From Brevinematales bacterium (GTDB lineage Bacteria; Spirochaetota; Brevinematia; Brevinematales; GWF1-51-8), in contig JABLXV010000029.1 of NCBI GenBank assembly GCA_013177895.1, forward strand, positions 1-54,905: a stretch of DNA of 54,905 nucleotides, written 5' to 3'. The notes below the pieces were generated by a model. That model saw only the letters and a list, made by a program, of their open reading frames with translations. It was not told the DNA's origin and did no database searches. The translations under genes and the position numbers were made by a program. Below, piece by piece: positions 48,046 to 53,079 of this stretch (positions are counted from its first letter, which is position 1; every line of letters starts with the position of its first letter).

Positions 48046-49153
48046 ATGGGAGCATTATACGAACGGGTGACCGAGCTGAAAAAGACATTCGAGCATGACT
48101 GGAGGTATCTTTGAGATCGAAAAACGGGTCTCGGAGATCGAAAGTATCCGCGTCCAACTGACCGACGAAAAAGTCTGGAGCGACCATAAACTCTCGTCCA
48201 AGCTGAATTCGAACCTGTCCATGCTGGAACGGGAGATCGAGGCGTGGAAAGTCATGCGGAAGGATATCGAAGACCTGCAGGGGCTTGCGGAGTTGACCGA
48301 GTCCGAGGGTGACGAGGCCATGATCGACGAGCTCCAGCGCAATTTCGAATCCCTGACAGCGAAACTATCCCGGCTCGAGATAGAGATGATTTTCTCCGGG
48401 GAGAACGATACCCATGACGCGTTCCTGAATATCCATCCGGGCGCGGGGGGAACCGAATCCCAGGACTGGGGAGACATGCTCCTTCGGATGTATCTCCGGT
48501 GGGCGGAAATCAGCGGCTTCAAGGCGGAACTGGTCGATTACGAACCGGGCGACGTCGCCGGGCTGAAGGACGCTACCATCTATGTTCGGGGTACTTACGC
48601 CTACGGCTACCTTCAGGCGGAGAACGGGATTCACCGTCTCGTGCGTCTTTCGCCGTTCAACGCGAACAATAAACGCCAGACGTCGTTCTGCGCGATCAGT
48701 ATTATTCCCGAAGTCGACGACGAGATAAAAGTAGACATTAAGGACGACGATATCCGTATCGATACATTCCGTGCGAGCGGCGCGGGCGGCCAGCATGTCA
48801 ATAAAACCAGCTCCGCGATACGGATCACGCACTTCCCGACCGGGATAGTCGTGACCTGCCAGAACGAACGTTCCCAGCACCAGAATAAAGACCTCGCGAT
48901 GCGCGTACTGCGCGCGCGTATCTATAAGTACGAAGAGGAGAAGCGCGACCGCGAGGATGCGGCGAAGATGCCGGAGCGCAAGTCCATCGAATGGGGCAAC
49001 CAGATACGGAGTTACGTATTCCAGCCGTACACGATGGTGAAAGACCATCGTACAGACATCGAGAAGGGAAATATTCAGGCGGTAATGGACGGTGAAATAG
49101 AAGATTTTATTATCGGCTACCTGAAAATGACTAAAATGAAAACATCCAAATAA
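48046..49153 (+). CDS. prfB: Peptide chain release factor 2, with programmed +1 frameshift
   Basis: RF2 terminates translation at UGA and UAA. The frame from ATG 48046 (MGALYERVTEL...) runs 22 codons to TGA 48112-48114, and the main frame continues after skipping base 48112, giving about 368 residues. The site reads GGAGG TAT CTT TGA, matching the classic RF2 autoregulatory frameshift (Shine-Dalgarno-like GGAGG, then TAT, slippery CTT, UGA). The body has the release motif 'GAGGQHVNKTSSAIRI' and the stop-codon recognition motif SPF in 'RLSPFNANN'. An ATG at 48095 in the main frame could give a shorter product, but the shift signals argue for the longer form. Confidence 0.93.
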
Positions 49154-50072: not shown

Positions 50073-52574
50073 ATGAACTGGAAAGAATTTTACGGCCTCG
50101 CGCTGAACGGCATCGTATTCAGCGACGGCGCGATGGGAACGCTTTTACAGCAGATCGGGCTCACGTCCGACGAATGCCCCGAGATATGGAATGTCACGCA
50201 CGCCGAGGATATCTACGCTATCCATAAGCAGTATGTCGAATCCGGCTCCATGATGCTGACAACGAACACATTCGGGGGAAACCGTCTCAAGCTGTCGAAT
50301 TATAAATCCGCGGATCGCCTGAAGGAACTGAACGAGGCGGGAGTTCGTAACGCTAAACGCGCCGCGAACGGGAAGGCGATAGTCGCCGCATCGGTAGGCC
50401 CGACCGGGAAATTTATCGAGCCGCTCGGCGAATTATCATTCGACGAAATGGTCGAGATATACAAGGAACAGATAGAAGTGCTCGCGAACGCGGGCGCGGA
50501 TGCGATCGATTTCGAGACGCATGTCGACCTATTGGAACTCAAAGCCGCGATGATCGCATGCCGCGAGATATGCGACCTCCCGATGATCGCGAATATGACG
50601 TTCGACGCGGAGGGGCGCACGGTTACCGGGACACCGCCCGAAGCGGCATTCGCGATGATGGAAGCGCTCGGCGCGGCGGTTATCGGTACGAATTGCAGTA
50701 CCGGGCCCGACAAGATGGCGGAAATTATCGCACGCACGCGCGGGCTTTTCGATATCCCGATGATCGCGCAGGCGAACGCCGGGATGCCGCATATCCACGA
50801 GGGAAAGACCGTTTTCGACGAGACGCCGGATTCCTTCTCGGGCAAAGCGGTCAAGATGATCGACCTCAAGGATATCGGCGGTGCGAACATTATCGGCGGA
50901 TGCTGCGGGACATCCCCGGAGCATATCGCGCGTATGATCGAGGAGATGAATTATACCGGGGTCAATGTGATCGGCGGATGCTGCGGCACCACGCCCGCGC
51001 ATATCGCGCAGTTGATCGAATCCTCGAAGGGAACGAAGATCAACCGCCGAGATATTGTCCGCAGGAATTTTTTAAAGATTTCATCGCGCTACCGGATAGT
51101 CCTGATGAACCATGACGAGCCGTTTGTCGTGATCGGCGAAAGGTTGAACCCCACCGCACGTAAGAAGCTCGCGGAGGATATCAGCAGCGGCGATTTCAGC
51201 ATGTTTAAGGACGAGGCGCTTGCCCAGGAACTCGCGGGAGCGGCGATTCTCGATATGAATATGGGGATTCCCGGGGCGGACGAACCCGCGCTGATTAAAA
51301 AGGGCGTCGAGATACTTTCGAATACAGTACAGGCTCCGTTCGCGATAGATACGTCCAATCCCGAAGCCGCGAGGATCGGGATGCGGCTTTACCCGGGCAA
51401 ACCGTTGCTGAACTCCATCAGCGCCGAGGCAGATCGTCTCGAACTCCTCAAGGATATAAAAAAGTACGGCGCGGCTTTTATCGCGCTCCCGATCGACGAG
51501 AACGGGATACCCGAGACCAGCGAGGGAAGAATCAAACTGATGCGGAAGATTATCGGCGAGGCGGAACGTCTCGGTATCGATAAGAAAAACATCATCGGAG
51601 ACCCCCTTGTCCTGACTGTGAGCGCGCAGCAGGCGGGCGCGAAGGTCACGCTCGAAACGATCCGCCGCTATAAGACCGAACTCGGCATTTATTCCTCGAT
51701 GGGGCTATCGAACATATCGTTCGGCCTGCCCGCGCGTGGAAATGTCAACCGGGCGTTCCTCAATATGGCGATCTCCGAGGGGCTGACCTCGGCGATTATG
51801 AACCCGTTGGATGCCGACCTGATGGGGCTCGTACGCGCGTCGGACGTCCTCCTAGCGAAGGATGCGAACTCCAAAGAATATATCCGTGCATACTCGGAGA
51901 CCGATAAACCGGGCGCGCCGCAGATGAAAACGGACGCGAAGCCGGAGAGCGCTCCCGCGACTATAGGCGAAAAGATGTACGACGCGATACTGAAAGGCAA
52001 CAAGGGCGGGATACTCCCGCTGATCGAGCAGGCGCTCGCTGAGAAAATGTCCGCGATCGAGATACTTGATAATCACCTGATAGCGGCGATCAATAAAGTC
52101 GGCGAACTGTACGAGAAACGTTTCTACTTTTTACCCCAGTTGATGATGTCCGCCGAGGCGATGAAGGCGGCGTTCGTAAGGCTCGAACCGCTGTTGAAGG
52201 CGGAGTCGCAGGAACCGAAGGGCACAATCGTGATCGCGACGGTGAAGGGGGATGTGCACGATATCGGTAAAAACATAGTGATCATCATGCTCCAGAATAA
52301 AGGGTTTCAGGTGATCGACTTAGGTAAGGATATCGCGAACGATGAGATAGTGCGGAAGGCGAAAGAGGTGGAGGCGGATATCGTAGGCCTTTCCGCGTTG
52401 ATGACGACTACTATGCCGCGGATGGAGGAGTTTATGAAACTCGCGTCGGGCGAGAAGTTCCGTGTCATGGTAGGAGGGGCGGCGGTCACTCCGGGATATG
52501 CCGGTGAGATAGGGGCATACTATGCCGCCGACGCGGTCAATGCGGTAAAACTGGCCGAAAAAATGATGGGATGA
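50073..52574 (+). CDS. metH: Cobalamin-dependent methionine synthase lacking the activation domain
   Basis: The 833-residue enzyme makes methionine from homocysteine and methyltetrahydrofolate through cobalamin. Order of domains: homocysteine-binding (about 1-310) with zinc cysteines in 'IGTNCSTGP' and 'GGCCGT'; pterin-binding (about 345-615, 'FVVIGERLNPT', 'GDPLVLTVS'); cobalamin-binding cap and Rossmann domain (about 635-833) with the histidine ligand in 'GDVHDIGKNIV'. The C-terminal SAM-dependent reactivation domain of E. coli MetH is absent, as in some other bacteria. Oddly, the 'IGGCCGTxPxHIA' zinc segment occurs twice (about residues 273-285 and 299-311), a tandem duplication of about 26 residues. 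Confidence 0.92.
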   Translation: MNWKEFYGLALNGIVFSDGAMGTLLQQIGLTSDECPEIWNVTHAEDIYAIHKQYVESGSMMLTTNTFGGNRLKLSNYKSADRLKELNEAGVRNAKRAANGKAIVAASVGPTGKFIEPLGELSFDEMVEIYKEQIEVLANAGADAIDFETHVDLLELKAAMIACREICDLPMIANMTFDAEGRTVTGTPPEAAFAMMEALGAAVIGTNCSTGPDKMAEIIARTRGLFDIPMIAQANAGMPHIHEGKTVFDETPDSFSGKAVKMIDLKDIGGANIIGGCCGTSPEHIARMIEEMNYTGVNVIGGCCGTTPAHIAQLIESSKGTKINRRDIVRRNFLKISSRYRIVLMNHDEPFVVIGERLNPTARKKLAEDISSGDFSMFKDEALAQELAGAAILDMNMGIPGADEPALIKKGVEILSNTVQAPFAIDTSNPEAARIGMRLYPGKPLLNSISAEADRLELLKDIKKYGAAFIALPIDENGIPETSEGRIKLMRKIIGEAERLGIDKKNIIGDPLVLTVSAQQAGAKVTLETIRRYKTELGIYSSMGLSNISFGLPARGNVNRAFLNMAISEGLTSAIMNPLDADLMGLVRASDVLLAKDANSKEYIRAYSETDKPGAPQMKTDAKPESAPATIGEKMYDAILKGNKGGILPLIEQALAEKMSAIEILDNHLIAAINKVGELYEKRFYFLPQLMMSAEAMKAAFVRLEPLLKAESQEPKGTIVIATVKGDVHDIGKNIVIIMLQNKGFQVIDLGKDIANDEIVRKAKEVEADIVGLSALMTTTMPRMEEFMKLASGEKFRVMVGGAAVTPGYAGEIGAYYAADAVNAVKLAEKMMG

Positions 52575-52578
52575 CGGG

Positions 52579-53079
52579 ATGTTCCACCTGGTAAAAAAGT
52601 ATTCCAACAGGAAAATGTACGATACGTGCGGCAAGAAATTCATCAAGCTCGAGGAACTGATACAGTTTATTCTCGACCATGATGAAATAAGAATTGTCGA
52701 TAGCGATACGAATGTCGATATCACGGGGCTTGAGGTATCGAAGGCCATCGTGCGCTATATGAACGACGGCAACGCGGTTCCGGAAAGTTTGACGCTCCTT
52801 TTACGGGATATTTCCGAGCGGCGCAACGAACAGCCCCCCGTACCCCGCGGAAAGTTCGGGAAGTACGAACAATCCGCCGAGTCCGATAACGAGGTTCTTT
52901 CCTACGTACCCGCCGAGATCCGTCTGCTGAATAAGTCGATGGAATATCTCCACGGCGCGATCCATATCCTCAAGGACGAAAATCCCTATAACGCGAAACT
53001 GCACGACGAGCTTTATGTGACATTCAAGGAGTTCGACCGGAAACTGACCGAATTAAAAAAGCGGTACAGAATCAGCTAA
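52579..53079 (+). CDS. PhaR-like (PHA accumulation regulator) DNA-binding protein
   Basis: The N-terminal 60 residues match the PhaR DNA-binding domain: 'LVKKYSNRKMYDTCGKKFIKLEELIQFI' and 'IRIVDSDTNVDITGLEVSKAIV' follow the family's 'IKKYxNRRLYDT...YITLEDL..D..TGEDIT' pattern. The C-terminal 100 residues are charged, with a proline-rich patch and a coiled coil, unlike the PHA-granule-binding part of the classical proteins. In many bacteria this family represses polyhydroxyalkanoate genes; no such genes are seen here. It starts 4 bases after metH, so it is co-transcribed with it. Its target is unknown. Confidence 0.78.
   Translation: MFHLVKKYSNRKMYDTCGKKFIKLEELIQFILDHDEIRIVDSDTNVDITGLEVSKAIVRYMNDGNAVPESLTLLLRDISERRNEQPPVPRGKFGKYEQSAESDNEVLSYVPAEIRLLNKSMEYLHGAIHILKDENPYNAKLHDELYVTFKEFDRKLTELKKRYRIS

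Follow-up and report, generated by a model that had tools for sequence, protein, structure and literature searches.

In cobalamin-dependent methionine synthase (MetH), zinc is held in the homocysteine (Hcy) barrel by a cysteine following strand 6 and two vicinal cysteines following strand 8, and this three-cysteine site is common to MetH and betaine-homocysteine methyltransferase (BHMT; PMC539065). Within MetH, Linker I keeps the Hcy barrel locked, or zipped, to the folate barrel (PMC10567725). The MetH of T. maritima (PDB 1q7m, 3bol, 3bof and 1q8j) has the same Hcy and folate barrels as the protein described here; it contains one beta8-alpha8 unit, whereas the present MetH contains two, with about four additional residues before the first. 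BHMT and MmuM (PF02574) belong, as found by sequence, to the same homocysteine methyltransferase barrel family. Both have a single-copy site and lack folate and B12 domains.

Reportedly, a (beta/alpha)8 barrel with duplicated beta-alpha units and 'redundant folding possibilities' was engineered by Luger et al. in 1990. The study is among the references of PMC10880431. That engineered TIM barrel resembles the one described here in its additional beta-alpha unit at the terminus, but it was made in the laboratory, whereas the present duplication is natural, dates most simply from the ancestor of a genus, bears catalytic metal ligands and is under selection. A literature search found no paper describing a MetH with such a duplicated unit. 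A natural, selected duplication of one beta-alpha unit bearing catalytic metal ligands, in the TIM barrel of a core enzyme that apparently has no replacement, is a natural experiment on how a (beta/alpha)8 barrel accommodates nine candidate units, and on whether two copies of an active-site element can be interchangeable within one enzyme.

A MetH-type methionine synthase in Brevinematales

The window, the whole 54,905-nucleotide stretch of Brevinematales DNA analyzed here, encodes a MetH-type cobalamin-dependent methionine synthase of 833 amino acids (50073-52574, forward strand), recognized by its Pfam domains and by PDB matches, the best of which are the MetH structures of T. maritima and Thermus. 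According to Pfam, the protein consists of the Hcy barrel (S-methyl_trans, residues 17-290), the folate barrel (Pterin_bind, residues 356-576), and the cap and B12 domains (B12-binding_2, residues 633-704; B12-binding, residues 718-821), without a reactivation domain. Scores exceed the cut-offs for the homocysteine S-methyltransferase barrel (PF02574, 258 bits against 22) and the folate-binding barrel (PF00809, 71 bits against 25.5), as they do for the cap and B12 domains (PF02607, PF02310), and the DxHxxG motif is present as GDVHDIGKN. The score against the NCBIfam metH equivalog TIGR02082 (1182 positions) is 515 bits, below the curated cut-off of 1010.85, and the matches reach profile position 858 only, consistent with the missing reactivation domain. 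PF02965, the C-terminal AdoMet-dependent reactivation domain, which repairs oxidized cob(II)alamin, was found neither in MetH nor in five genomes searched (G000, G001, G003, G005 and G007). A control search did not find it in the T. maritima genome either, though PF02574 is present there, and PF02965 is thus not defining for MetH.

Neither MetE (PF01717) nor a second PF02574 gene was found in three genomes of the genus (G000, G001 and G003), which are 93-96% complete and, as drafts, miss genes. Since neither turned up in any of the three, the duplicated MetH is probably the working methionine synthase, with no other of these classes beside it. Judged from its domains and the absence of MetE, it would transfer the methyl group from methyl-THF to homocysteine. 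Elsewhere in the class Brevinematia, nine of 18 members (G006, G009 and G011-G017) gave no MetH match, so that methionine synthesis is patchy in this class, and one member (G007) has both MetH and MetE.

An in-frame duplication of the beta8-alpha8 unit

The metH gene contains an in-frame tandem duplication of 78 nt (26 amino acids), the two copies of which abut directly. Copy 1, GANIIGGCCGTSPEHIARMIEEMNYT, spans residues 270-295 (50880-50957, +) and includes Cys277-Cys278; copy 2, GVNVIGGCCGTTPAHIAQLIESSKGT, spans residues 296-321 (50958-51035, +) and includes Cys303-Cys304. The best 63-nt core of the repeat (50879-50941 and 50957-51019) is 76% identical, ATCGGCGGATGCTGCGG (17 nt) is identical at 50892-50908 and 50970-50986, and the motif GGCCGT is kept in both copies. 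The repeat exceeds chance in both DNA and protein. The best 63-nt self-match within 300 nt has 48 of 63 positions identical, and none of 500 codon shuffles exceeded 39; the best 26-residue self-match is 16/26, whereas 60 shuffles reached 10 at most. Pfam S-methyl_trans likewise matches MetH twice at the C-terminal end of the model, at 50121-50942 and again at 50949-51017; the second match, on copy 2, covers only the last 20-30 model positions. The Hcy (beta/alpha)8 barrel including both copies was therefore delimited at 50121-51035 (+, Pfam S-methyl_trans).

Alignment places Cys208 (codon 50694-50696, +), the first zinc ligand, and Asn235 (codon 50775-50777, +) at T. maritima Cys207 and Asn234, and both residues are invariant in alignment A1. 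Asn235 is presumably a resting-state ligand. The full set of three cysteines is present, since one GGCC pair aligns with T. maritima Cys272-Cys273, and the second pair is extra. From the described ligand layout (PMC539065) and the alignment to T. maritima MetH, the repeated unit is a complete beta-alpha module, made up of strand beta8, helix alpha8 and the zinc-ligand turn between them, and supplies two of the three zinc-binding cysteines. Immediately before copy 1, the alpha7-beta8 connection is about four residues longer than in outgroups (DLKDIG; 50862-50879, +), in this genus only. Linker I (51036-51120, +), located by alignment and assigned its role from PMC10567725, connects the Hcy to the folate barrel directly after copy 2. 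A preliminary description of this DNA had reported that the zinc-ligand segment of MetH is duplicated in tandem, which the 78-nt spacing and the shuffled controls bear out; it had placed the repeat correctly, without recognizing that the unit is exactly one beta8-alpha8 module or that it is preceded by the change of about four residues.

Which copy holds the catalytic zinc

MAFFT aligns copy 2 with the single GGCC of homologues, and an HMM of the outgroup single-copy segment scores copy 2 at 54-56 bits and copy 1 at 47-51 bits. In the AlphaFold model built on alignment A1 (m2c577b7a1ea9; mean pLDDT 90.5, pTM 0.90), which matches T. maritima MetH in the PDB, the copy-2 strand (299-302) occupies the beta8 place with a block pLDDT of about 96; copy 1 is disordered at 270-284 (pLDDT below 50), and its helix is moderately confident. 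The placement of copy 2 in this model is partly built in, because MAFFT had aligned the homologues to copy 2. A first neutral alignment (A2) was left out, its folate-domain rows being misaligned onto the Hcy barrel, and a further one (A3) had no homologue row over either copy; on A3, AlphaFold predicted each copy to contain one strand and one helix, at a pLDDT of about 26-41 throughout the two copies, and the folate domain was poor. Modeling, which the preliminary description had suggested for deciding which GGCC pair sits at the barrel mouth, thus points to copy 2 with an alignment bias in one case and gives low confidence for both copies in the other.

Copy 2 is favored because it fits the outgroups better, adjoins Linker I and lies in the barrel in the confident AlphaFold model. 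With about even confidence, we take copy 2 to be the catalytic site and copy 1 to be kept for packing or as an alternative occupant. We propose that beta8-alpha8 of the apparently sole methionine synthase became repeated in the genus ancestor through an in-frame tandem duplication of 78 bp, and that the duplicated enzyme would still be an ordinary zinc- and B12-dependent MetH. Copy 2 would most likely close the barrel, because its native junction to Linker I is kept, and would hold the catalytic zinc with Cys208 and Asn235. Copy 1 would then be a supernumerary beta-alpha unit lying between alpha7 and beta8, and selection keeps it as well, perhaps because its strand and helix now take part in the packing around beta7-beta8. 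Alternatively, either copy might fill the beta8 position in some molecules, a form of redundant folding. A packing role or redundant folding would make damage to either copy costly for activity.

Taken as a whole, the account in which copy 2 closes the barrel and binds zinc and copy 1 is a selected extra unit may equally well be right or wrong. Against it, copy 1, not copy 2, is contiguous with alpha7, pairwise searches with the barrel alone aligned copy 1 to T. maritima Cys272-Cys273, and copy 1 varies no more than copy 2 does, an odd pattern if it were merely inserted.

These points lend credibility to the reverse arrangement, which we nevertheless hold to be on the unlikely side: copy 1 would be the working beta8-alpha8 with the catalytic zinc, and copy 2 an added beta-alpha unit between the barrel and Linker I that makes the barrel end, or the connection to the folate barrel, longer. 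Copy 1 directly follows alpha7 and is nearly invariant in the genus, the local barrel alignment to T. maritima MetH stops within copy 1, and the residues of copy 2 and the linker vary more. However, the junction between alpha7 and copy 1 contains the roughly four extra residues absent from relatives, the outgroup profile fits copy 2 better, and copy 2 would part the barrel from Linker I, which normally locks both barrels (PMC10567725).

Both copies could also contribute cysteines to function: close to the catalytic zinc, the extra pair might form another metal site, enlarge the existing one or act as a thiol/disulfide switch. None of the four species has a change in the Cys pair of either copy (P ~2e-4 per pair without constraint). 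Moreover, the copy-1 helix and the copy-2 strand together have the spacing of a normal alpha7-beta8 and match its profile about as well as the real alpha7 does, better in one species; in that arrangement the cysteines of copy 1 would lie on the catalytic face. We regard such a site as unlikely: no extra conserved ligand was identified outside the copies, the AlphaFold confidence is low for copy 1, and a conserved beta-strand-to-helix turn alone may account for the conservation of the cysteines. The fit of the copy-1 helix likewise allows a third conceivable topology, in which that helix would replace alpha7. A barrel rebuilt in this manner, with the copy-1 helix in the alpha7 place, the copy-1 GGCC on the catalytic face and a second thiolate site or switchable zinc ligands, seems to us quite doubtful.

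Constraint on both copies

Whole-gene pairwise dS within the genus ranges from 0.31 to 1.13, and dN is low relative to dS in both copies; folate-domain dN values with one carrier (L003) were left out as too high, apparently owing to a stretch that is masked or divergent. Across the four species, GGCCGT shows zero amino-acid changes in either copy and silent changes in both, whereas about 21 nonsynonymous changes per motif would be expected without constraint (P ~1e-9), a rough expectation based on four taxa, NG86 distances, whole-gene dS and a tree whose total length is about 1.56 synonymous substitutions per site. With the tree length halved, about 10 changes would still be expected for the motif. 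Copy 1 is no less invariant than copy 2, and more variation falls in copy 2 and the linker. Both copies are, on this pattern of substitution, under selection.

In all four species the copies differ from each other, at silent sites as well as by fixed copy-specific residues (A/V, I/V and the helix ends). Wholesale gene conversion is therefore not what keeps the motifs alike, and was rejected as an explanation. It is correspondingly very improbable that the repeat is a neutral insertion yet to decay, or that the copies are homogenized by conversion. Part of the core is nearly identical in DNA, including the 17-nt identity in the window, but synonymous divergence has reached 0.3-1.1 per site with no amino-acid change in either GGCCGT, and the fixed differences indicate that the copies have not been homogenized as a whole. 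Among the three meanings offered in the preliminary description, the neutral insertion is thus disfavored by motifs conserved over saturating synonymous divergence; an alternative metal site and a lengthened barrel end are possible.

Distribution and origin of the duplication

The duplication is present, with the same 26-residue (78-nt) spacing and frame, in all four genomes examined of one uncultured Brevinematales genus. These are distinct genomes whose MetH proteins are 84-90% identical and which share the gene order galU-like, metH, phaR-like; two of them are independently named public assemblies, JAGVBZ010000032.1 (Brevinematales bacterium DeMMO6_14) and MIBD01000029.1 (Spirochaetes bacterium GWF1_49_6). 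The nearest MetH proteins of the same order (G004, G005, G007 and G010; 57-63% identity) have the same domain order but a single GGCC, without the 26-residue insertion. Every other Spirochaetota MetH read out to the GGCC motif is single-copy; some relatives with local matches extending further upstream were read directly, and these too are all single-copy.

The search was extended with a doubled 52-aa query to about 1,130 genomes of three other groups (approximately 398, 398 and 331), namely those of a Caulobacteraceae, a Lachnospiraceae and a Deltaproteobacteria record. No candidate was found in this sample, where the best score was 43 bits; the real duplicates of the window and two relatives score 100-113 in a blastp calibration, the scoring scheme of which is not identical to that of the genome search. 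A collection-wide scan for two TGYTGYGG motifs 21-31 codons apart returned at least 119 stretches; among those listed, the only ones with a MetH gene are L070 and L136, which belong to the genus; the remainder are simple repeats or chance. With all four genus genomes carrying the duplication, the other Spirochaetota MetH proteins single-copy and the sampled groups without a candidate, the duplication would most simply have arisen once, in the ancestor of the genus.

An assembly or chimera artefact, which the draft or metagenome origin of the source genomes might suggest, was rejected and has a negligible probability, given that four distinct genomes at 84-90% protein identity, including both public assemblies, share spacing, frame and neighboring genes. 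The preliminary description had named clade-wide alignment as a check and single-copy relatives, together with reads showing one copy, as the sign of an artefact; the alignment finds the duplication conserved throughout the genus and absent from relatives outside it. The duplication is a real, old and lineage-specific change to the MetH core.

One record in the collection (L109, CP051228.1) is labeled Mesoflavibacter (Bacteroidota); its phylum sample shares genomes with the sample of the Caulobacteraceae record, which suggests that its organism name is mislabeled.

Genes flanking metH

Directly downstream of metH, a gene for a protein resembling PHB/PHA accumulation regulators (PF07879) lies at 52579-53079, and is adjacent to metH in all four genus genomes. 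Upstream, prfB (48046-49153), encoding release factor 2, has a programmed +1 frameshift, a classic and known mechanism. Its short lead frame, MGALYERVTELKKTFEHDWRYL, runs as far as CTTTGA (48109), after which reading goes on in the main frame at +1.
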